Positions 1,060 through 31,969 of a DNA stretch of 32,975 nucleotides are shown one piece after another. The notes below the pieces were generated by a model, which was given only the letters and a program-made list of their open reading frames with translations, made no database searches and was not told the DNA's origin. The position numbers and the translations under genes are program-made. Each line of letters starts with the position of its first letter. Position 1 is the first letter of the stretch. The stretch spans positions 1 through 32,975 of the forward strand of contig DAIDKO010000031.1 of the NCBI GenBank assembly GCA_027450005.1, in the 5' to 3' direction. The stretch comes from Rhodanobacter sp. (lineage in GTDB: Bacteria; Pseudomonadota; Gammaproteobacteria; Xanthomonadales; Rhodanobacteraceae).

Positions 1060-2129
1060 TGCGGTGCGACGGCGCGGCGCGCCAGTCGGTATTCGTGCAT
1101 CAGCCGCGCCACCAGCTCGGCGGCGGGTTGCGGGCGCGCCCGTGCGGCAGCTTGCCCGCACCACTCGGAAACCAGGTCGGCGCGACCGGCAGCCGCTGCG
1201 GCACGCCGCAGCGGCGCGGTGAGCGCATTGAGCACGGGATAAACGGGCAGCTCGTCGGCGCTTCCCTCCAGCGCCTCGACATAGCGGTTGCGCAGCCCGC
1301 GCGCCGCGCGGCCCGAGAAGCTGCGGATGGTGGCGACGCGATGGTCTTCCGCATCGAGGAGGTCGCGCTTCCATGCTTCCGCCGCCGCGGATTCGGGGCA
1401 GGCGAGAAAAGCCGTGCCGAGCTGGCTGGCCGCCGCGCCGAGTACTTCGGCGGCGAGCATGCCGGCGCCGTCCATGATGCCGCCCGCGGCGATCACCGGC
1501 ACGCCGTCGCAGGCCGCCACGGCCAACGGAATCAGCGCGAACAAGCCGACCAGCGGCGTCTCGCCCGCATGCAGGAAGCCGCCGCGATGGCCGCCCGCCT
1601 CGGCACCCTGCACGCACACTGCATCCGCACCGCGCTCCGCCCAGGCGCGCGCTTCCGCCGCCGTGGTTGCGGTGCCGATCACGCGGATGTCGCAGCGCTT
1701 CAGCTCCTGCATCTGCGCGGACGTGAGCAGGTCAAACGCAAAGCTGGCCACCGCGGGACGCGCCTCGCACAGCGCCGCGAACTGATCGGAGAAGCGCGGC
1801 GCCCAGCGCGCCGGCAACGTGGTGCGCGCATCCAGGCCTTCGCGTTCCATCAGCGCATCCAGCCGCTCTCGGGCGCGGGCGACGGCGGCCATGTCCGGCG
1901 CAGCCTCGTCGGGCAACACGAACAGGTTGAGCGCGAAGGGGCGGCCGGTAAGTGCGCGGGTTTGCGCGGCTTGCTCGAGGATCGCCTGCGGCTCGGCATA
2001 GCCCACGCCCAGCGAGCCCAGCCCACCCGCCTCCGCAACGGCGGCGGCCATCTGCGGCGTGCTAGCACCCGCCATCGGCGCCTGGATCAACGGATGCTCG
2101 ATGCTCAGTTGCTGTGCGAGGGAAACCAT
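1056..2129 (-). CDS. Nitronate monooxygenase (2-nitropropane dioxygenase family)
   Basis: This 357-residue protein is an FMN-dependent TIM-barrel enzyme of the NMO family, which oxidises alkyl nitronates (such as the toxin propionate 3-nitronate) to carbonyl products and nitrite. Visible features are the N-terminal HPLIQAPMAGASTP strand that contacts FMN, the GGLGSLGVGY loop, GADAVCVQGAEAGGHRG carrying the conserved catalytic-site histidine, and the phosphate-binding VPVIAAGGIMDG followed by LGAAASQLGTAFL. The C-terminal part (about 275-357) is less conserved and alanine-rich. It lies between nrsF and rsfS on the same strand with a 91-bp gap from nrsF, so co-transcription with the sigma-factor operon is possible. 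The exact substrate cannot be read from sequence. Confidence 0.9.
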   Translation of the reverse strand: MVSLAQQLSIEHPLIQAPMAGASTPQMAAAVAEAGGLGSLGVGYAEPQAILEQAAQTRALTGRPFALNLFVLPDEAAPDMAAVARARERLDALMEREGLDARTTLPARWAPRFSDQFAALCEARPAVASFAFDLLTSAQMQELKRCDIRVIGTATTAAEARAWAERGADAVCVQGAEAGGHRGGFLHAGETPLVGLFALIPLAVAACDGVPVIAAGGIMDGAGMLAAEVLGAAASQLGTAFLACPESAAAEAWKRDLLDAEDHRVATIRSFSGRAARGLRNRYVEALEGSADELPVYPVLNALTAPLRRAAAAAGRADLVSEWCGQAAARARPQPAAELVARLMHEYRLARRAVAPH

Positions 2130-2220
2130 GCGCGTCGCCTGCCGCGGAAACCCGCGCGATTATCCGCCTTCGCAGCGGCATGCGGCGCGCTGCCTTCCCT
2201 CATCCCGGCACGGCGGAGGG

Positions 2221-2871
2221 TTACCTCGACAGCAGCCGCCCGCCCATCGCCGAATTCGCCGCCACCACCACGCCCACCGCCAGCGCATGGGTGAACAGGT
2301 CGGTCGCGGCCGCGTCGTAGGCGTGGCAGATCTCCAGCAGGCTGGCCGATGCGGCTGCGCTGGCCAGGCCCACCAGCATCGCGGTCAGCAGGGGGCGCAG
2401 CGGGCAGGCACGGCGCACCAGCCACACCAGCAGCGCCGACAACGGGATCGAGAAGGCCACGATGAAGACGAAGCAGTCGGCGGACTGGTGCAGCGTGGCG
2501 ATGCTAGTGCCCGGGGCCAGCCAGGTGCGCAGGCAGCCCAGTCCGCTGGCGCCGATCCACAGCAGCGCGGGCGGCAGCGGCAACCAGCCCCAGGCGCGCG
2601 ACCGCCCCGGCACGGCCAACGTGAACGCGGCCCAGGCCGCCGTCACCGCGGTGAGCACGGCGCCCAGCGCGGCCCAGGCGAGATCCGGCGCGCCGGCCCA
2701 GCGGCGCAGCATGGGCTGGTCGCCGTAATGTGCAAATAGCAGCATGGCGATCGCCACCACTAGCGCGAGCCAGCCCAGCGTGCGTCGCCACGGCGGCAGC
2801 AGGCGCCGCACCGGCACCAGCTCGGCGCTGAGCGCGGCAATCAGGCTGTCGTTGGAGCGCGGCTCGGCCAT
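2221..2871 (-). CDS. nrsF: NrsF-type membrane anti-sigma factor (DUF1109)
   Basis: The 216-residue protein has about six hydrophobic segments, near residues 32-46, 66-88, 98-113, 132-152, 159-178 and 193-206. Its first 30 residues are hydrophilic (SLIAALSAELVPVRRLLPP), typical of NrsF/DUF1109 negative regulators of SigF-class ECF sigma factors. Cysteines are at 113, 133, 156 and 182. C133 and C182 lie close to the two conserved cysteines (about 131 and 181) that, from memory, are needed for signal response in Caulobacter NrsF. It starts 3 bp after the sigma gene stop, so translation is probably coupled. Inferred job: hold the sigma factor at the inner membrane until oxidation or metal stress modifies the cysteines. 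Confidence 0.85.
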   Translation of the reverse strand: MAEPRSNDSLIAALSAELVPVRRLLPPWRRTLGWLALVVAIAMLLFAHYGDQPMLRRWAGAPDLAWAALGAVLTAVTAAWAAFTLAVPGRSRAWGWLPLPPALLWIGASGLGCLRTWLAPGTSIATLHQSADCFVFIVAFSIPLSALLVWLVRRACPLRPLLTAMLVGLASAAASASLLEICHAYDAAATDLFTHALAVGVVVAANSAMGGRLLSR

Positions 2872-2874
2872 TAC

Positions 2875-3456
2875 TCAGTCTTCCCCGTGCAGGTGACCGC
2901 GCAAGGCCTTCAAGGCGCGGTGCAGGTTCACTTTCAGCGCGCCGGTGTTGCGGCCGGTATGCGCGGCGGCCTCGGCCAGCGATTGCTCGCGCAGGCCGAG
3001 TTGCTCCACCGCTTCGCGCTGGCCGGGCGGCAGTTGCGCGATGGCCTCGCGCAGGCGCCGTGCCTGCTGGCGGCGCTCGGCATCCACGCTCGCGTCGTCG
3101 CGATCGGGGTGCTGGTCCAAAGCGATCTCGTCGTGCAGTTCGCGCCGGTCGCGCCGGCCATGGCTGCGCAGCACATCGATGGCCCGGCGCCCGGCAATGG
3201 CGCCCAGCCAGGCGTCGTAGGAGCGCGCCGCGTCGTAGGTGTGGCGCACGCGATGCACGGTCAGCAGGGTTTCCTGCACCACGTCGTCCAGCGCGTCCGT
3301 ACCCACGCCCTGCCGGCGCGCCACCGCGCGGATCAGCGCCACCGAATCGGCCAGCACGCGCTCGTAGGCGCGGCGGTCGCCCGCCTGCGCGGCGGCCATC
3401 CAGGCGGCACGCCGGCGTTCGGCCTGCTCGTTGGCGCTGGCGGGTTCGGCGGGCAC
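2875..3456 (-). CDS. sigF: ECF sigma factor, SigF-like
   Basis: The protein has ECF sigma region 2 (DDVVQETLLTVHRVRHTYD, then YDAWLGAIAGRRAIDVLRSHGRR) and region 4 (QLPPGQREAVEQLGLREQSLAEAAAHTGRNTGALKVNLHRA, given here in pieces of the helix-turn-helix). The frame is open back to an ATG at 3558. However, the SigF-type -10 element lies at 3562-3559, so that ATG would fall upstream of the transcript start. I prefer GTG at 3456, giving 193 residues, the usual ECF size. TTG at 3528 (217 residues) and ATG at 3399 (174 residues) are alternatives. The gene overlaps nothing and sits 3 bp before nrsF. It is probably self-activating through the promoter at 3584-3559. Confidence 0.85.
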   Translation of the reverse strand: MPAEPASANEQAERRRAAWMAAAQAGDRRAYERVLADSVALIRAVARRQGVGTDALDDVVQETLLTVHRVRHTYDAARSYDAWLGAIAGRRAIDVLRSHGRRDRRELHDEIALDQHPDRDDASVDAERRQQARRLREAIAQLPPGQREAVEQLGLREQSLAEAAAHTGRNTGALKVNLHRALKALRGHLHGED

Positions 3457-3558
3457 GGAGACGCGGCAATCCAGTGACGGGGCGAAGCCGCCATCCCATA
3501 CCAAGCTGCCATCGGCGGTCAAGGGCAATTCGTCCCGTGCTGCGGTACCACCCTGCAA

Positions 3559-3584
3559 TTCGCCGCATCCGGCCGCCGGGTTAC
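3559..3584 (-). promoter_or_regulatory. sigF: SigF-type promoter for sigF-nrsF
   Basis: On the minus strand GTAACC (3584-3579) is followed by exactly 16 bases and then CGAA (3562-3559). This is the same motif and spacing as the divergent copy at 3600-3625. As I recall it, GTAACC-N16-CGAA is the promoter consensus of Caulobacter SigF. The predicted transcript starts near 3552, which implies autoregulation and rules out the ATG at 3558 as start codon. Confidence 0.75.
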
Positions 3585-3599
3585 CCCGTATCGGTCAAT

Positions 3600-3625
3600 G
3601 TAACCATCGGCGCGATGGTGACGAA
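3600..3625 (+). promoter_or_regulatory. SigF-type promoter for dipZ-msrB
   Basis: GTAACC (3600-3605), a 16-base spacer and CGAA (3622-3625) form the second, divergent copy of the motif. The -35 elements of the two promoters are only 15 bp apart, back to back. The predicted start of transcription is near 3632, giving a leader of about 25 bases before ATG 3657. Confidence 0.75.
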
Positions 3626-3656
3626 TCACCAGCACACCTCAACCGGAACCCTCGCC

Positions 3657-5384
3657 ATGCTCCTGCTGATCCTTGCCTACCTCGGCGGCGTGCTCACCAT
3701 CCTCAGCCCCTGCATCCTGCCGGTGCTGCCGTTCGTGTTCGCCCGTGCCGATCGCCCGTTCCTGAAAAGCGGCCTGCCGATGCTGATCGGCATGGCCGCC
3801 ACCTTCGCGCTAGTCGCCACGCTGGCCGCAGTCGGCGGCGGCTGGGCGGTGCACGCGAACCAGTACGGCCGCGCCGTGGCGCTGGTGGTGCTGGCCCTGC
3901 TTGGCCTCACCCTGCTCTCCGGCCACGTCGCCGAATGGCTGACCCGGCCGTTCGTGGCGCTGGGCAACAAGCTCTCGCAACGCACCGACGGCGACGGCGG
4001 ATCGGTATGGGCCTCGGTGGGCCTGGGCATCGCCACAGGCCTGCTGTGGGCGCCGTGCGCCGGCCCCATCCTCGGCTTGCTGCTGACCGGTGCGGCGCTC
4101 AAGGGCGCCAGCGTCACCACCACCCTGCTGCTGCTCACCTACGCGCTGGGCGCGGCCACTTCGCTGGCGCTGGCGTTGGCCGTAGGCGGCAAGGTGTTCG
4201 CGCTGATGAAGCGTTCGCTGGGCGCAGGCCAGTGGGTGCGACGTTCGCTGGGCGTGCTGGTGCTGGCCGGCGTGGCCGCCATCGCGATGGGCGTGGATAC
4301 CGGCCTGCTCACCCGCGTCTCGCTGGCCAGCACCAACGGCCTCGAGCAGAAGCTGATCGATGCGGTGCAGCCGATGCCTGCCGCGATGGCCTCGCCCGCG
4401 CCGAAACCCGGCGAGGCGTTGCCGGTGGAGGGCACGCTGCCTTCGCTGTCCGGCGCCACCGGCTGGCTCAACAGCGCACCGCTCACCCGCAACTCGCTGC
4501 ACGGCAAGGTGGTGCTGGTGGATTTCTGGACCTACTCCTGCATCAACTGCCTGCGCTCGCTGCCCTATGTCGAAGCCTGGTACGACAAATACAAGGACCA
4601 CGGCCTGGTGGTGATCGGCGTGCACTCGCCCGAATTTGCCTTCGAAAAGGATCGGGCCAACGTGGCCGCAGCGGTGAAGCGCCTGGGCGTGACCTATCCG
4701 GTGGCGCTGGATTCCGACTACGCGATCTGGCAGGGCTTCAACAACGAATACTGGCCGGCGGAATATTTCATCGACACCTGGGGCCGCATCCGCCACCACA
4801 GCTTCGGCGAAGGCGGCTATGCTGAAGACGAAGACGTGATCCGCCAGTTGCTCACCGCCGCCGGCCACACCCACCTGCCCGGCGGCTACGTGCAGCCAGG
4901 CGCGAAGGGCGTGGAAGCCGCCATCGCGAACGACAGCGACCGCTCGCCGGAAACCTACGTGGGCTACGCGCGTGCCGACAACTTCGCCGGCGGCCGGCTG
5001 GTACATGGCGACGCATCCGACTACCGCGCGCCGGCCACGCTGGACACCAACCAGTGGGCGCTGGGCGGCCGCTGGACCGTGCGCCCGCAGGAAGCCACGC
5101 TGGACGCCGCCAGCGGCTCCATCACCTACCGCTTCCGCGGCCGCGACCTGCACCTGGTGCTCGGCCCCGGCAGCGATGGCAAGCCGGTGCGCTTCCGCGT
5201 CACGCTGGATGGGCACGCTCCCGGCGCCGACCACGGCGTGGACACCGACGCGAACGGCAACGGCACGGTCAAGGCGCAGCGCCTGTACCAGTTGGTGCGC
5301 CAGGCCCACGGCAACGGCGAGCGCACCTTCACCATCACCTTCCTCGAACCCGGCGTGCACGCCTACGCGTTCACCTTCGGCTGA
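3657..5384 (+). CDS. dipZ: DipZ-like thiol-disulfide transporter: CcdA, thioredoxin and beta domain fusion
   Basis: The 575-residue protein resembles mycobacterial DipZ. Residues 1-215 form a CcdA/DsbD-beta-like membrane domain with two redox cysteines, C19 in SPCILPVLP and C134 in WAPCAGP. These carry electrons from cytoplasmic thioredoxin across the membrane. Residues 255-410 are a periplasmic thioredoxin/TlpA-like domain with the active site C295-I-N-C298. The last 150 residues, rich in beta-strand patterns and ending in the aromatic VHAYAFTFG, match the carbohydrate-binding-module-like domain of DipZ. ATG 3657 is chosen because the next in-frame ATG upstream (3615) lies inside the promoter. 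It is followed by exported MsrB, so it is the likely reductant supply for that enzyme. Confidence 0.9.
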   Translation: MLLLILAYLGGVLTILSPCILPVLPFVFARADRPFLKSGLPMLIGMAATFALVATLAAVGGGWAVHANQYGRAVALVVLALLGLTLLSGHVAEWLTRPFVALGNKLSQRTDGDGGSVWASVGLGIATGLLWAPCAGPILGLLLTGAALKGASVTTTLLLLTYALGAATSLALALAVGGKVFALMKRSLGAGQWVRRSLGVLVLAGVAAIAMGVDTGLLTRVSLASTNGLEQKLIDAVQPMPAAMASPAPKPGEALPVEGTLPSLSGATGWLNSAPLTRNSLHGKVVLVDFWTYSCINCLRSLPYVEAWYDKYKDHGLVVIGVHSPEFAFEKDRANVAAAVKRLGVTYPVALDSDYAIWQGFNNEYWPAEYFIDTWGRIRHHSFGEGGYAEDEDVIRQLLTAAGHTHLPGGYVQPGAKGVEAAIANDSDRSPETYVGYARADNFAGGRLVHGDASDYRAPATLDTNQWALGGRWTVRPQEATLDAASGSITYRFRGRDLHLVLGPGSDGKPVRFRVTLDGHAPGADHGVDTDANGNGTVKAQRLYQLVRQAHGNGERTFTITFLEPGVHAYAFTFG

Positions 5385-5392
5385 GCCTTGCC

Positions 5393-5419
5393 GCCCCTCC
5401 CCTCTGGCAGGGGAGGGGC
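5393..5419. repeat. Perfect hairpin between dipZ and msrB
   Basis: GCCCCTCCCC (5393-5402) and GGGGAGGGGC (5410-5419) form a perfect 10-bp stem with a 7-base loop. There is no T-run after it, so a full terminator is unlikely. It could stabilise the dipZ mRNA or lower msrB expression. It resembles the C-rich hairpin at 7825-7847. Confidence 0.6.
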
Positions 5420-5442
5420 ACCACTCCCCACTGGAGGCTTCC

Positions 5443-6060
5443 ATGTCCCGCCTCGACGAAACCCTCGCGATGGATCGCCGCCGTTTCCTGCGCGCCGCGG
5501 TTAGCGGCAGCGCGTTGCTCGTGGCCGGCGGCGGCTTCGCCCTGCCCCGCCTGCTTGCCGCTGGGGCCCAGGGAGGGGTGCCCGCGCTGATCCACGACCA
5601 GCCGGGCGAAGTGCTGCTGGAGTGCTACGCCGACGACGGCCGCGACCTCGGCCCCTGCAAGGTCGCCCGGCTGGTGCTCACCGATGCGCAATGGCGCGTG
5701 CGCCTGTCGCCGCTGGCGTTCGAGGTGATGCGCCGCAACGGCACCGAACTTGCCTTCAGCGGCCCGCACGAACGCCCCGCACAACCCGGCCTGTTCCGCT
5801 GCGTGGCCTGTGCCACCGCGCTCTACGACGCCGCCAACGAATTCGACTCCGGCACCGGCTGGCCCAGCTTCTGGCGCCCCATCGCCAAGCGGAACGTGAT
5901 CGAAAGCCGCGACGACAGCCTCGGCATGGAACGTATCGCGGTCAGTTGCGCCGGCTGCAACAGCCACCTCGGCCACGTGTTCGACGACGGTCCGCGGCCG
6001 ACGGGACTGCGCTATTGCATGAACTCGGTGGCGTTGCGGTTCGTGGCGCGAACGGGGTGA
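5443..6060 (+). CDS. msrB: Tat-exported peptide-methionine (R)-S-oxide reductase MsrB
   Basis: The 205-residue protein starts at ATG 5443, six bases after a GGAGG. Residues 11-42 are a Tat signal: DRRRFLRAAVSG then a hydrophobic stretch ending ALPRLLAAGAQ. Residues 75-203 are the SelR/MsrB domain with two zinc CxxC pairs (C120/C123 and C169/C172), the substrate-binding GTGWPSFW, HLGHVFDDG, and catalytic C192 in LRYCMNS. MsrB reduces methionine-R-sulfoxide in proteins. The Tat signal places it in the periplasm, which fits electron supply from the DipZ-like protein encoded just upstream. Two further cysteines, C61 and C72, lie in an extension before the domain and may act as resolving cysteines. 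It is inferred to be under SigF control with dipZ. Confidence 0.93.
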   Translation: MSRLDETLAMDRRRFLRAAVSGSALLVAGGGFALPRLLAAGAQGGVPALIHDQPGEVLLECYADDGRDLGPCKVARLVLTDAQWRVRLSPLAFEVMRRNGTELAFSGPHERPAQPGLFRCVACATALYDAANEFDSGTGWPSFWRPIAKRNVIESRDDSLGMERIAVSCAGCNSHLGHVFDDGPRPTGLRYCMNSVALRFVARTG

Positions 6061-6130
6061 CGGCGGACGCCGTCTCGCGCGATATGCGGTGGCCGGGTAG
6101 GCATGGCCTCGGGTTCGCCTAGCGCAAGCG

Positions 6131-6745
6131 ACAAAGCCGTTTCGAGCGCCTGCCGGCGCCCGAGTGACTTCTCTTTTGCTTTTCCAAATAGAGAAGTCAC
6201 CAAGAGAAAACGACACCCCGATGGCGCGCCCTCCAGGCATCCTGCCTTGCGGGTACGCGGGCGGGCTACGGGGCTTTTCGACGGGACTCCTGTCCCGGCG
6301 AAAAACTGGCCCGCATCCCTGCGGTCCATCCTGCGGACTTTCCTCCGCCCACCCGCCACGCCATAGGGGCCCCGGGTAGAGCAGCGCGCTCCCGGCGCGC
6401 ATTTCCCGAAAAGCCGGAGCAAGAGCACCACGCTCAGCGTGGCGCTCTGCTGTTGCTTCTGGTGCGCACGATGCGCGCCGGCTGTTCCGGGGCCCCTGGG
6501 CGGCGGTGAGGTGGGAACGATCAGGCAGCGCAGCGGGCGATACCACGGACGGTCTCGCCTTTTCGACCGGGCAGGAGCCCAGCCGAAAAGCCCGGCCACG
6601 CCTCACGCACTCGCAGGGCAGGAGGCCCGGAGAGCGAAGCCCCGGGGTGCTCTTTCTCTTTGGCTACTTTCTCTTTGAGCACGCAAAGAGAAAGTAGCTC
6701 GGGCGCCGGCAGGCGACCGAAACCGCCTCGTTACCCACCACACGC
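6131..6745. repeat. Large imperfect inverted repeat (palindromic intergenic element)
   Basis: This fills most of the 743-bp gap between msrB and nadD. The left arm starts with GTTTCGAGCGCCTGCCGGCG near 6140 and contains the stem GTGACTTCTC/GAGAAGTCAC (6164-6173 with 6191-6200). The right arm, read in reverse from about 6745, has the same order: GTTTCGGTCGCCTGCCGGCG, a longer CTACTTTCTCTTTG hairpin, a CCTGCC block, a GGCTTTTCG block and GGGGCCCC. Arms are about 240 bp. The centre (about 6400-6480) has its own hairpin, CCACGC-TCA-GCGTGG. No protein-coding gene is convincing. The terminal hairpin recurs at 7594-7667. The family resembles dispersed repeats of other Xanthomonadales genomes. Confidence 0.75.
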
Positions 6746-6803
6746 AATAACCAACGGACAGGCGAGCAAAGGCACTCGGGTTCAACGGGCACACGAAATC
6801 GCC

Positions 6804-7442
6804 TCAGCGACGATACGGCGCCAACAACCCCGGATCGTCGAACAACCCCGCCGGCAGCAGATAGCGCGGATCGCGTCCCGCGGCTAGCAAATCGCGGATG
6901 CGGGTGGCGGAGATTTCCAGCGGCGTCACCGCCAGTTCGATCAGCTTGCCGCAAGGCCTGGCATGCAAGGCAGCCACGTCGTCGACCCGGCGTGCAACGA
7001 CCTCCTCGATCAGCTCGGCGGGGCGCAAGGCGTCCACGCCGGGCCGGCTCAGCACGCCGATATGCGCGAAGTCGAACAGCTCGCGCCAGCGATGCCAGCC
7101 CGGCAGCCCGGCAAAGGCGTCCGCACCGAGCAACAACACCAGCGGCCGTGCGCCCTGCTCCGCGCGCAGTTCACGCAAGGTGTCGATGGTGTAGGAGGGC
7201 CCCTCGCGCTCGAGCTCCCGCGCATCCAGCACCAGCCGCGACTGCCCCGCCAGCGCCGCGCGCAGCATCGCCACCCGCTCGGAGGAAGACGCCAGCGGCG
7301 CCGGCCGGTGCGGCGGTACGCTGGCTGGCATCAGCCGCACCTCAGCATCCAGCAACTCCGCTGCCTCCCAGGCCACGGTGAGGTGGCCGATGTGCACGGG
7401 ATCGAAGGTGCCGCCGAAGACAGCCAGCGGGCGTGCGCTCAT
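6804..7442 (-). CDS. nadD: Nicotinate-nucleotide adenylyltransferase NadD
   Basis: This 212-residue enzyme joins nicotinate mononucleotide and ATP to give deamido-NAD in NAD biosynthesis. It carries the nucleotidyltransferase signature GGTFDPVHIGH near the N-terminus, the adenine/substrate region LLLGADAFAGLPGWHRW, and the C-terminal ISATRIR motif that binds ATP phosphates. The frame also has a GTG at 7448. A GGAGG at 7454-7450 is spaced 7 bases from ATG 7442 but only one base from the GTG, so ATG 7442 is chosen. Its normal neighbours holA (upstream) and rsfS (downstream) are both separated from it here by repeat-filled DNA and, on the rsfS side, by five other genes. Confidence 0.95.
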   Translation of the reverse strand: MSARPLAVFGGTFDPVHIGHLTVAWEAAELLDAEVRLMPASVPPHRPAPLASSSERVAMLRAALAGQSRLVLDARELEREGPSYTIDTLRELRAEQGARPLVLLLGADAFAGLPGWHRWRELFDFAHIGVLSRPGVDALRPAELIEEVVARRVDDVAALHARPCGKLIELAVTPLEISATRIRDLLAAGRDPRYLLPAGLFDDPGLLAPYRR

Positions 7443-17301: not shown

Positions 17302-17970
17302 CTAATGGAGCACTTCGTCTCGCTCCTGCTCGAAACGGGCAATCTCCGCCAGCGCCGCCTCGGCTCGTTGCACGCTGCGCCCCGCTGCGCTGTCTTCGAG
17401 CTTGCGTCCCATGCCGGCGCGACGCATCAGCCATACCACAAGTACGCAGCCGGCCAGTCCCACCAAGGCACTGGATACTGCCCAGGACATGAATCGCGGC
17501 GACCACAAGTCAATGCCATACCAAGCCAGATTCATCCAGAGCACCGGTATCCAGATGAAGCAGCCCACGACGGCGTTGATCGGTGATTCGACGCGGACGC
17601 GCCATGCACGCAAGTCCGCTACCTGACGCTGAATGGCAAGTACCGGCGATGCGTAATCGATGCGACTGACCAGCTGCAGCACTCTCACGGCCATCACGAT
17701 CAACAGCAATCCATAAGCGTGAACCAGCAGTCCGCACACCAGCAGGTCGACGGCATGCCGGTGGCCGACCCAGAACACGGCGGCCACCACGGCGAACATC
17801 GCGCCAAATGCCAATTGCAGCACTTGCCCCCATACCAGCGGCCGCAGGCCACGGCGCAACTTGTCCAGGCGGCTGTCCTGGAACAACTGCATGTTCAGTG
17901 CCTGCTGTCGCTCCAACTGATTGCCCAGCGCCCGCCACGCCAGCTTCATCTCATCGAGTTCCATGCTCAT
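17302..17970 (-). CDS. Membrane protein coupled to an ECF sigma factor (possible anti-sigma)
   Basis: The 222-residue protein has a soluble N-terminus (MELDEMKLAWRALGNQLERQ) with a helical look. Four hydrophobic segments follow, near residues 47-68, 75-97, 130-151 and 163-185, and then a charged helical tail (RAEAALAEIARFEQERDEV). I do not recognise a named family. Its start overlaps the stop of the upstream sigma gene (ATGA at 17970-17967). That coupling and the N-terminal soluble helix suggest an anti-sigma or sensor role, but no zinc-binding anti-sigma motif is seen. It may start at the third residue (17964) instead. Confidence 0.75.
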   Translation of the reverse strand: MSMELDEMKLAWRALGNQLERQQALNMQLFQDSRLDKLRRGLRPLVWGQVLQLAFGAMFAVVAAVFWVGHRHAVDLLVCGLLVHAYGLLLIVMAVRVLQLVSRIDYASPVLAIQRQVADLRAWRVRVESPINAVVGCFIWIPVLWMNLAWYGIDLWSPRFMSWAVSSALVGLAGCVLVVWLMRRAGMGRKLEDSAAGRSVQRAEAALAEIARFEQERDEVLH

Positions 17971-18488
17971 GCTCCGGTAGCGGCCGCGGTGGTCATGCGA
18001 CTGCGCAGCCTGTGCTTGATACGGTTGATCTTGGTGGCCACGTTGCTGGTGCTGATGCCGAGCACGTCGGCAATTTCCGTGTAGCTGCGGTCTTCGAGGT
18101 ACAACAGGATCAGCGCGCGGTTGAGCGCGTCGAGTTCGCCGATGAATGTGTATAGCGCGGCGAGGCGTTCGTCCGGCTCCGCCACCGGCTGGCCCGGGAT
18201 GGTGTCAAGGTGCGTTTCGTCCAGCGGCTCGAAACGACCGGCTTCGCCGCCCGTACGTCGAAGATGCGATATCGCCACGTTCAAGGCGATGCGGTACAGC
18301 CAAGTGCTGAACTTCGCGCGCCGCTGGTCATAGCCGGCAAAGGAGCGCCACAGTTGCGCGCCGATCTCCTGCGCCAGGTCCAGCCGCTCCTCGGCACCGC
18401 GCGCGTAGACGCCGGCCACCTTGAGCACGATGCCCCGATGCTCGCGCCACAGCGCCTCGAAACGTTGCTGATCCGCCTTGCCGCCCAT
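17967..18488 (-). CDS. ECF-family RNA polymerase sigma factor
   Basis: The 173-residue protein has sigma region 2 (FEALWREHRGIVLKVAGVYA, DLAQEIGAQLWRSFAGYD, FSTWLYRIALNVAISHLRR) and region 4 (LDALNRALILLYLEDRSYTE and the helix-turn-helix IADVLGISTSNVATKINRI). It is the RpoE-like ECF type and is coupled to the membrane protein that follows. No obvious autoregulated promoter pair like that of the first sigma gene was found upstream; the 125-bp gap to the divergent DUF502 gene was examined by eye. The target genes are unknown. Confidence 0.9.
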   Translation of the reverse strand: MGGKADQQRFEALWREHRGIVLKVAGVYARGAEERLDLAQEIGAQLWRSFAGYDQRRAKFSTWLYRIALNVAISHLRRTGGEAGRFEPLDETHLDTIPGQPVAEPDERLAALYTFIGELDALNRALILLYLEDRSYTEIADVLGISTSNVATKINRIKHRLRSRMTTAAATGA

Positions 18489-22696: not shown

Positions 22697-22918
22697 CGCG
22701 CTCTCCTCGTGTCGATATCCGTTCAAGCCTAACGCCACCACGCACCGTTGCCGAGTCGTGCACGGGGACGATGTCGTCGTTGCATGCCGTTCATGTATCA
22801 CCACTCATTCGCGTTTGCATTAGCTTCTTGATGATCCGCATCGGAGCCGGCGCGTCGTGTCATGCGCCGGCCGACCCTCCCTGCGCCCCGTTCCGAACCA
22901 CTCTGTAGCCTTTCGCCG

Positions 22919-23267
22919 ATGGGCTTCGTCAAGAACCGCAAGCACTCCGTGGTGCGCCGCGGCGCCACCCCTTCGCTCACCGCCGCCACGCTCACCGCCA
23001 GCCTCGCGCTGGCGCTGCCGGCCATGGCGACCGATGCCGCATCGCCCGTCACCGATGCCCAGATCGCTACCGCCAAGCGCCTGCACGGCGTCACCGTGAA
23101 GGGCACCGTCGCGCTGTACAAGGTCGATCAAGCCTCCTCGCCGAAGTTCACCCAGCCGCTACTGGACACACCGCAGACAATCTTCGACATCAGCAAGGAG
23201 CTGATGCACGAGCAGGGCGCCAACACCCTCACTGAAGCGCTGCGCAGCACGCCCGGTGTCGGCACGA
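22919..23267 (+). pseudogene. Truncated TonB-dependent siderophore receptor, N-terminal part
   Basis: About 116 residues remain. Visible are a signal peptide (RRGATPSLTAATLTASLALALPAMATDA) and the start of a TonB-dependent receptor plug domain: VTVKGTV, FTQPLLDTPQTIFDISKELM, then LTEALRSTPGVGTI. This matches the opening of catecholate siderophore receptors such as Fiu. After GVGTI (about 23267) the sequence changes abruptly to the reverse complement of an IS256-family transposase. The missing 600-700 residues of barrel are not found in the window, so the gene is dead. The start at 22919 fits the signal peptide. The junction could be a few bases either way. Confidence 0.85.
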
Positions 23268-23679
23268 TCAGGCCCGGCGACACTTCGGCGCCGTACATAT
23301 CTTCCCGGTGCGCCTGGATCTCGCGCACCGTCAGGCCGCGGGCGTACAGCGACAGGATCTTTTCGTCGAAGCCGGTCCAGCAGGTCTGATGCTTGGGGAT
23401 CAGCTCCGGCTCGAAGGTGCCGTCGCGGTCGCGGGGTATCTCGATGGGCAGTTCGCCGAACTCGTCCTTGAACGTCTTGCGGCTACGGCCGTTGCGGGTG
23501 TTGCCGGCGGCGTTGGACACCGGCTCGTGCTTCTCATGACCGAGGTGCTCGGTCATCTCCGCATCCAGGGCCTTCTCGACCAGCAGCTTGGTCAGCTGCT
23601 TGAGCAGGCCGTTCTCGCCAATCAGGTCTTCGGGCTTCTGGTAGTTGGCCAACAGTCGGCTAAGCAGCTCGTCGGGCAC
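23268..23679 (-). pseudogene. IS256-family transposase, N-terminal fragment
   Basis: Starting at ATG 23679, about 137 residues match the IS256 (Mutator-like) transposase N-terminus: LLANYQKPEDLIGENGLLKQ, LLVEKALDAEMTEHLGHEKH, GNTRNGRSRKTF, and PRDRDGTFEPELIPKHQ. The last matching part is LSLYARGLTVREIQAH and EDMYGAEVSPGLI. The catalytic DDE residues, which lie later in the usual 400-residue protein, are gone. The frame continues for another 45 codons into reverse-complemented receptor DNA. The fragment cannot transpose by itself. Confidence 0.9.
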
Positions 23680-25928: not shown

Positions 25929-26312
25929 TTAATTCGCGGCAGGGGCGACGCACTTGATCTTGCTGCAATCGAAATCCACCTCGACGCCGCGACCTACGAT
26001 CACTTCTACGTTCTTGTGCTCGGCGACCGGATGGCCTATCTGCTTCAGAATCACGTTGTAGGTGCCAGACGGCAGCGCGTTCGCGGCGTAACGGCCAGAG
26101 GAATCCACAACCACCGTACGGCCGCCACCGGTCTCGGTGCTGCGCGCGGACACGGTGTAACCCGCCGGCGCCTTGCCGAAGATCGAGCCGGAGGTGGACT
26201 GGGCATTGGCCGTGGAGATGCCCGCCACGGCGAACGCGCCAACGACACAAGCCAGCGCCAGGCCACCAATCAGACGGCGCGAAGCGAAACGGATCGAGAA
26301 GATTTTGTTCAT
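25929..26312 (-). CDS. Secreted small protein with carboxypeptidase-regulatory-like beta domain
   Basis: Starting at ATG 26312 (MNKIFSIRF), this is a 127-residue protein. A longer start at 26324 adds four residues. GGAA lies six bases before ATG 26312. A signal peptide covers about residues 1-38, ending near TANAQ. The mature part (GSIFGKAPAGYTVSARSTET, GRYAANALPSGTYNVILKQ, NVEVIVGRGVEVDF) has the pattern of the carboxypeptidase-regulatory-like domain that opens Oar-type TonB-dependent receptors in Xanthomonadales. Here no plug or barrel follows, and the chain ends DCSKIKCVAPAAN with a cysteine pair that may form a disulfide. The function is unknown. It could be an orphaned receptor domain or a free periplasmic protein. 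Confidence 0.85.
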   Translation of the reverse strand: MNKIFSIRFASRRLIGGLALACVVGAFAVAGISTANAQSTSGSIFGKAPAGYTVSARSTETGGGRTVVVDSSGRYAANALPSGTYNVILKQIGHPVAEHKNVEVIVGRGVEVDFDCSKIKCVAPAAN

Positions 26313-26369
26313 GATGGTTTCCATTGATTACCAGCGAAAAAACACGGGCTTACCAAGGGTTTGGCGCTT

Positions 26370-31102: not shown

Positions 31103-31258
31103 TCATGGGTCCTGCACCGATTCGACCTGGATGCGCAGGGTCACTTCATGTCCATGCCGAACGACTTGCCGCCGTCGAGTCCGAACGCATCGCGCTGGAA
31201 CGTTCCCAGCGCATCGGCACCGCAACGCAGTCGCGGCTTGAGCATGAAATCGGGTCGG
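31103..31258 (-). pseudogene. YceI-family protein, frameshifted C-terminal remnant
   Basis: On the minus strand, one frame reads FMLKPRLRCGADALGTFQRD then AFGLDGGKSFGMDMK and stops. A second frame directly continues EVTLRIQVESVQDP and stops at 31103. Together these match the end of YceI-family periplasmic lipid-binding proteins, which typically read CGADA...RDAFGLDAGKSYG...VTLRIQVEAV. One missing G in AAG(G)TG near 31144 explains the shift. The N-terminal two thirds are absent; the tnpB remnant lies directly upstream, suggesting that its insertion broke the gene. Recognition is from family memory and needs a search. Confidence 0.65.
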
Positions 31259-31259
31259 A

Positions 31260-31969
31260 GTCTCAACCCTCAGCGGCAGTCGATCCCGTCGCTCTCGGGT
31301 GGGGCGCGGCGACGCCGCGCGATAGTTCAGTTCGCGGTTCCACGAGCTCGGCTGTCCAGCAGGCGATGAACCGCCGACCGCGCACGCATACTCTCCCCGC
31401 GCGTCCGTTCCCCGGCTCCTCCGGGTACGTTCCGGTCGCCCGGAAACCGCCGCGAGCAGGCGCAGGCCCTCGCGCTCGATGTTCTTCGCCGCGTTCAGGT
31501 CGCGGTGGTGGTTCGCGCCGCACGCCGGGCAGACCCAGCGGCGGTCGCTCAGCATCAGGCCCGCATGGACCTGCCCGCACGCGCCGCACGTCTTGCTGCT
31601 CGGGTAGAAGCGGCCGACGATGCTGACCACCCGACCCCGCCACGCGGCCTTGTAGGCCAGTTGCCGCCGGATCTCGCCCAGGCCGGCATCGGCCACCGAG
31701 CGCCGGAACGCACGCCGTCCCATGCTTCGCGCCATCGCCTTCACGGCCAGGTCTTCGATGCAGATCACCTGCGCGCCCGCCACCAGACGCGCCGTCAGCT
31801 GGTGATGGTGATCACGACGGCCGTCCGCGATCTTCGCGTGCAGGCGGCCGATGGCACGCTGGGTACGCCGTAGGCGGTTCGACGCGGCGCGGCGCGTGCC
31901 TTTCGCGAATGGCCGGGCCGGATCGAGCCCTTGCCCCCGGGCCGATGAAACCGACAGGAGCAGCGGCAT
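31260..31969 (-). pseudogene. tnpB: TnpB (IS200/IS605-type OrfB) remnant
   Basis: The frame from 31969 carries the C-terminal half of TnpB. It shows the RuvC-II segment AQVICIEDLAVKAM with its glutamate, GEIRRQLAYKAAWRGRVV, FYPSSKTCGACGQ with the zinc-ribbon CxxC, WVCPACG with the second pair, and the RuvC-III HHRDLNAAKNIEREG. The N-terminal half with the RuvC-I aspartate is not found, and the start (LDPARPFAKGTRR, then ASNRLRRTQRAIGR) looks internally deleted. The intact protein is about 370-400 residues. Downstream, the frame runs on through non-TnpB DNA to 31103. No tnpA was seen. The likely right end is near 31260, where the sequence passes into YceI-like DNA. Confidence 0.8.

Follow-up and report, generated by a model that had tools for sequence, protein, structure and literature searches.

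The window analyzed here is a 32,975-nucleotide stretch of a Rhodanobacter sp. contig (DAIDKO010000031.1, assembly GCA_027450005.1). Between a sigF-like gene and a dipZ-like gene, which point away from each other, lie two divergent copies of GTAACC-N16-CGAA. The copy upstream of the sigF-nrsF operon occupies 3559-3584 on the minus strand (GTAACC at 3584-3579, CGAA at 3562-3559), and the copy upstream of dipZ-msrB occupies 3600-3625 on the plus strand (GTAACC at 3600-3605, CGAA at 3622-3625). Both matches are exact, with 16-base spacers, as an original prediction made from the sequence had described them; the −35 boxes are separated by a gap of 15 bases. The motif had been named there as the SigF consensus of Caulobacter; it is indeed printed as such in PMC3511200, and the consensus of ECF group 16, tGTAACc-N16-CGAA, is given in PMC3420878. 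Using the 6 bp that separate the −10 box from the transcript start mapped for ecfF (PMC3420878), we predict transcription from the sigF-nrsF promoter to begin at 3553-3550 (−); the predicted start of the dipZ-msrB promoter is at 3631-3634 (+).

By a first-order Markov estimate, the window should contain 0.015 exact N16 sites, both strands counted, and about 1.5e-7 divergent N16 pairs with −35 boxes at most 100 bp apart, which agrees with the earlier judgment that a chance pair is very unlikely. When the spacer is allowed to vary from 14 to 18 bases, three matches are observed in the window versus a mean of 0.08 in dinucleotide shuffles. The third, GTAACC-N14-CGAA at 26157-26180 (+), lies inside an open reading frame (25929-26324) and is taken as chance. 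No sigma-70-like promoter was found across 2000-6900 of the window.

The sigF-like gene (2875-3522, −) encodes a protein with sigma-70 regions 2 (PF04542, 36 bits) and 4 (PF08281, 39.2 bits), both above their cut-offs, and no other sigma region above its own, which is the architecture of an ECF sigma factor. Its longest frame begins at TTG 3558, immediately after the −10 box and upstream of the predicted transcript start. Because this codon abuts the −10 box, the true start must be downstream, at either TTG 3522 or GTG 3456. Of the 14 loci printed, 13 (all but L045) show a recognisable counterpart of a peptide like LTADGSLVWDGG that starts at codon 3522; in L050, a stop codon lies in frame just ahead of the counterpart of that codon. 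The anti-sigma factor gene nrsF (2221-2871, −, including the stop) begins 3 bases past the sigF stop codon, and its product matches PF06532 (NrsF) with 72.9 bits against a cut-off of 26.8; the hydropathy segments of the protein, in which we looked for six transmembrane helices, merge. An ECF-group-16 model was not among the matches listed from the profile libraries used. The window holds a second ECF sigma factor gene at 17967-18488 (−), with a gene behind it at 17302-17970 (−) whose product looks like a membrane protein, and no GTAACC-N14-18-CGAA was found near this sigma factor gene.

On the other side, the dipZ-like gene (3657-5384, +) encodes a CcdA/DsbD-like membrane part, a thioredoxin-like part and a C-terminal Thioredoxin_10 domain (PF17991, 171 bits). 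Redoxin also scores above its cut-off, and DsbD_TM reaches 24.7 bits, under its cut-off of 27.1. A possible ribosome-binding site, GGAA, can be read directly at 3645-3648. The msrB gene follows at 5443-6060 (+), with 146.8 bits to PF01641 and 159 bits to TIGR00357 (cut-off 113.05); the N-terminus of its product is twin-arginine-like (MDRRRFLRAAVSG), the Tat signal being read by eye. Where no family match is cited, the names dipZ, bufferin-like, DoxX-like and OrfB-like and the word 'periplasmic' are presumptive or assigned by eye. The output of dipZ-msrB is probably the repair of oxidised proteins outside the cell membrane. Farther along the window, a transposase-like fragment and what appears to be the truncated start of a TonB-type receptor overlap (23128-23679, −; 22862-23389, +), and an OrfB-like transposase fragment lies at 31103-31969 (−), all by eye; part of the latter recurs at the beginning of a called gene product on a different contig of this genome (L002).

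We examined the two sites across Rhodanobacteraceae, where NrsF is present in 80 of 147 genomes. The first set comprised 71 sigF-nrsF loci (the window plus 16 plus 54) from 14 genera, counted by code. Kept outside it were the high-scoring-NrsF loci of genera g11 and g26 (L041, L274-L279), the second NrsF of genome G001 (L042) and several weak matches (L036-L038, L040, L058, L060). The sigF and nrsF matches are spaced by 6-45 bases in 71/71 loci. Every readable locus has the sigF-side site: of 70, 55 match exactly and 15 have one mismatch, L242 stopping at a contig edge. The same holds on the dipZ/msrB side, where 55 of the 69 readable loci have an exact site, 10 have one mismatch and 4 combine exact boxes with N15; the gene behind the site is dipZ in 64 and msrB in 5, and the remaining 2 of 71 have neither gene in reach. 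A reversed-motif control within one mismatch was found in 0/71 and 0/69 loci, respectively. Every one of the 25 one-base mismatches falls on the sixth base of the −35 box, and pairwise identity of the spacers averages 40% and 38% on the two sides. L250 carries an additional exact site (7267-7292) within the N-terminal region of its sigF, with one-mismatch versions in L239 and L262.

A second set of 80 loci was drawn from named records, mostly Rhodanobacter, Dyella, Frateuria and Fulvimonas with some metagenome bins under broader names; it overlaps the first, and 35 of its loci have a sigF-side site absent from the first set. The sigF-side site is found in 80/80, of which 51 match exactly and 29 differ by one base. 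On the dipZ/msrB side, the count is 79/79: 68 match exactly, 8 differ by one base and 3 have exact boxes with a spacer of N15 or N17. The reversed control came within one mismatch in one instance. As the pair is kept in so many related bacteria, it is very likely real, and by its conservation we regard it as under selection.

The bare pattern is not specific genome-wide. In 15 genomes of the genus, there are 91 N16 matches, 31 at the sigF-nrsF locus and 60 elsewhere, versus 54 for the reversed control pattern. A genome-wide scan as proof of targets was therefore dropped as non-specific, and because this background is close to that of the control, only conservation separates true from chance sites. 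For the same reason, the original claim that the motif identifies the target genes without any experiment goes too far. In the genome of the window, the other three exact N16 matches all fall within called genes, as do the two further matches to a relaxed GTAAC-N17-CGAA (L284, L285).

As a negative control, DipZ was sought in 22 genomes without an NrsF match; 47 others without NrsF lay outside this set. Five of the 22 have a DipZ match, and in this small control only two are full length (G005, 68% identity; G052, 53%). Neither of these two genes has an upstream site within one mismatch, and the three shorter homologues have no site near their start. One of the shorter ones (L283) has a single one-mismatch N15 match elsewhere in its locus. 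Together with the conservation in all readable loci, the absence in the two full-length cases favors the proposal that the sites serve sigF-nrsF and dipZ-msrB.

We are confident that the best explanation of the locus as a whole is a set of separately maintained promoters of one autoregulated ECF sigma factor, which would be released from NrsF and direct periplasmic methionine repair. The strongest competing possibility is that the promoters are real and another cellular ECF sigma factor also, or mainly, reads them, so that sigF would not be strictly autoregulated. The second ECF gene of the window is a candidate, and there is a precedent in Caulobacter, where the sigF promoter is still active in a sigF mutant and the authors suspected a second factor (PMC3511200). 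However, the sites and sigF-nrsF co-occur in every readable locus of both sets, and the site is missing from both full-length DipZ genes of the NrsF-free negative control; we consider this possibility unlikely.

Alternatively, the two motifs could form a single bidirectional element or operator for both genes, one site being a by-product of the other. Such an arrangement is suggested by the loci in which the −35 boxes lie 13-16 bp apart, which make up 26 of 69 and include the window with its 15. Across the set, however, the gap can be as short as 2 bp or as long as 2424 bp, and neither site is ever lost, including in the 6 of 69 loci in which the boxes are 889-2424 bp apart. The distance from the end of the dipZ-side −10 box to the start of the dipZ/msrB match, on the other hand, stays at 30-38 bp in 59 of 65 N16 loci. 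Because the distance between the −35 boxes varies this much, we conclude that the promoters are kept independently, and we regard the single element as very improbable. Chance resemblance in GC-rich intergenic DNA, which the near-control frequency of off-locus matches (60 vs 54) and the position of the window genome's three other exact matches within genes might suggest, is given virtually no weight in view of the minute number of pairs expected in the window and, decisively, the conservation of the sites despite diverged spacers.

Sites of this type also occur beyond the divergent pair. Twenty-three of the 71 loci carry a further same-strand site downstream of nrsF, exact in 22 and with one mismatch in 1. 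What comes after it is a small methionine-rich repeat protein in 21 and a different small protein in two (L227, L267); that of L227 matches DUF2282. The frame chosen after this site was the methionine-richest open frame, a choice biased towards methionine-rich proteins. A codon-usage script, purpose-written rather than a published gene finder, independently called the methionine-rich gene in 12 of the third-site loci; it also supplied the gene calls around the off-locus sites and around the other matches in the window genome. Three of the proteins were scanned, and they score 92, 40.9 and 33.6 bits to TIGR02953 (penta_MxKDx; cut-off 41). This family is matched in 7 of the 15 genus genomes, in 2 above the cut-off, and always at the sigF-nrsF locus; it misses G001 and G003, where the methionine-rich gene is recognised by codon usage and by eye.

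The window has a remnant of this third promoter at 2199-2224 (−). Its GTAACC is kept at 2224-2219, overlapping the nrsF stop, and its −10 element has become TGAG (2202-2199); L050 and L044 have intact third sites at the same place. The next gene past the remnant is an unrelated one (1056-2129), no methionine-rich gene follows, and no MXKDX-family match was found in the window genome, an assembly that is 87.7% complete. The window is a case of promoter decay where the target gene is missing.

The 60 off-locus N16 sites of the 15 genus genomes were studied in 59 regions. Recurring genes follow 24 of them: MsrA 10 times (9 by clustering and L121 by position), a catalase-related protein 7, a secreted-looking protein 3, trxB 2 and an AhpD-like protein 2; some of the remaining 36 may be real. 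The MsrA concerned has an N-terminal extension and occurs in 10 of the 15 genomes, each time (10/10) with an exact site before it, and the 250 bp scored for the other MsrA type, present in 13 loci, never contain a site within one mismatch (0/13). In G009, an exact N16 site (L099; contig 17, 2588-2613) lies 20 bp before an MsrB-like gene that sits beside an MsrA of the other type; it is about 500 bp upstream of that MsrA, outside the 250 bp scored, and may put the pair under the same control. The catalase-related gene (PF00199) is found in 9 of the 15 genomes, with 7 exact sites, 1 with one mismatch and 1 exact at N15 or N17. The secreted-looking protein (L113, L120, L122) has no family match, and sites recur before thioredoxin reductase (L090, L137) and the AhpD-like gene (L136, L146). 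Of the genes that the earlier proposal suggested looking for downstream of such sites, msr genes occur there, as does DUF2282 in some relatives. Neither the extended-type MsrA nor the catalase-related gene was found in the window genome, a provisional absence given that this genome is 87.7% complete; as assembled, it has only the divergent pair and the decayed third site.

The anti-sigma factor differs from studied relatives in its cysteines. Cys133 of NrsF (codon 2473-2475, −) is a cysteine in 71/71 group loci and in 10/10 comparison sequences (residues 129-132). It is the counterpart of the first signature cysteine, C129 of OsrA, as placed via the comparison sequences rather than the OsrA or Caulobacter proteins themselves. 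Cys113 (codon 2533-2535, −) is likewise present in 71/71 group loci and, among the 10 comparison sequences, only in L042. The second signature cysteine (C179 of OsrA) is absent from that column in all 71 group sequences and present in 9 of 10 comparison sequences (residues 180-182), L042 again being without it. Two columns ahead of it, 61 of the 71 group sequences have C182. With the second signature cysteine missing, the inducing signal may not be the one that acts in the studied systems.

The bufferin-like sigF-nrsF loci of the same family (L041, L274-L279) carry three sites of the same motif each (7/7). One of the three points to the nrsF-containing operon; the other two precede small proteins, with larger genes behind them. 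At L275 and L276, the gene called next to the operon-side site is an nrsF copy, and one small protein behind a site of L041 matches DUF2282. Unlike in the window, their targets are not DipZ-MsrB (for bufferins, see PMC12452194). NrsF scores also differ, with 235.6 bits in L018 versus 72.9 in the window. Because the bufferin-like loci have the same motif before other genes, one promoter code appears to serve different outputs.

It is tempting to go further and propose two branches under one promoter code, with bufferin-type operons and a classical NrsF on one branch and thiol-based methionine repair with a C113-C133 redox switch on the other, the sensor chemistry and the output having changed and the promoter code having stayed fixed. 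We offer this only tentatively and think it is probably not correct as it stands. L042 contradicts a strict pairing of output and cysteines, since it has bufferin-like neighbors yet also C113 and C133, without the second signature cysteine. This second sigF-nrsF pair of G001 lies in one run with bufferin-like genes (DUF2282-like by eye), and no exact GTAACC-N15-17-CGAA site is among the matches listed for it.

Several characterized systems resemble the one described here. One is SigF-NrsF of Caulobacter crescentus, which likewise has an ECF sigma and NrsF operon, GTAACC-N16-CGAA and a similar promoter before sigF (PMC3511200). In lacZ fusions, activity was lost without the promoter elements; peroxide induction of SigF targets was not more than twofold, and sigF was weakly autoregulated (PMC3511200). 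The targets reported there differ, being CC2907-2905, CC3254-3257 and CC2748 (YedY-like) rather than DipZ-MsrB (PMC3511200). A classical NrsF also has the second signature cysteine that none of the 71 group sequences has. EcfF-OsrA of Bradyrhizobium japonicum is similar in having an autoregulated promoter and in belonging to ECF group 16, and its targets include three predicted peptide methionine-sulfoxide reductases, an output that is shared here (PMC3420878). Its motif is different, GTAAC(g,a)-N14-15-(c,t)CG(t,a), and OsrA requires Cys129 and Cys179 (PMC3420878); only the former has a counterpart here.

BcrS of Brucella melitensis (PMC8315932) and the sigF/nrsF-yedYZ-mrpX system of perchlorate reducers (PMC4623255) share an NrsF/DUF1109-type protein, a methionine-rich protein and methionine-sulfoxide reduction against hypochlorite, with MsrP/YedY and MsrQ/YedZ as the reductase. 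In our system, by contrast, the reductase would be MsrB, joined in relatives by MsrA, and the electrons would likely come from DipZ. The mrpX study is reportedly that of Melnyk 2015. In Haemophilus influenzae, the ECF sigma factor of RpoE2-HrsE-MsrAB controls a periplasmic MsrAB under hypochlorite stress; its anti-sigma factor is different, a 67-residue cytoplasmic protein and not NrsF (PMC7907618). PSPTO_1043 of Pseudomonas syringae, in a paper that mentions Rhodanobacter homologues, was considered and set aside as a different system, since it belongs to an RpoE-ChrR-type pair with another motif (PMC5507510). Our literature search, which covered few subscription journals, found among the papers listed no publication on a DipZ-MsrB/SigF-NrsF regulon in Rhodanobacteraceae and none that joins DipZ, MsrB and a sigma factor.

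From its sequence, we interpret the system as an ECF16-like regulon that controls its own sigma factor and serves the repair of methionine sulfoxide in the periplasm. Because the second signature cysteine was not found, we use the term ECF16-like, for a system that works in the manner of SigF-NrsF, and do not count it as a full member of the group. In a resting cell, the sigma factor would be held at the membrane by NrsF. Oxidative, perhaps HOCl-like, stress outside the membrane would oxidise the NrsF cysteines and free the sigma factor, and RNA polymerase with this factor would then transcribe sigF-nrsF and, divergently, dipZ-msrB. New sigma factor made from the minus-strand promoter would provide the autoregulation. 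MsrB, presumably exported, would reduce methionine-R-sulfoxide in periplasmic proteins, with DipZ delivering reducing power to it across the membrane. In relatives, the same promoter may add an extended MsrA with an export-signal-like N-terminus, a methionine-rich MXKDX-type protein and a catalase-related protein.

In kind, the system is a known one: an autoregulated stress regulon of the ECF16-like sort, with methionine-sulfoxide reductases among its members. What is new within the literature searched is the putative core output, DipZ with a predicted exported MsrB, and an anti-sigma factor that lacks the second signature cysteine. The locus provides Rhodanobacter, Dyella, Frateuria and Fulvimonas with a proposed regulon, complete with promoter positions, for the repair of oxidised methionine in the periplasm, which is directly testable. 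It also offers a natural comparison in which an anti-sigma sensor would have changed its cysteines as the promoter code stayed fixed.
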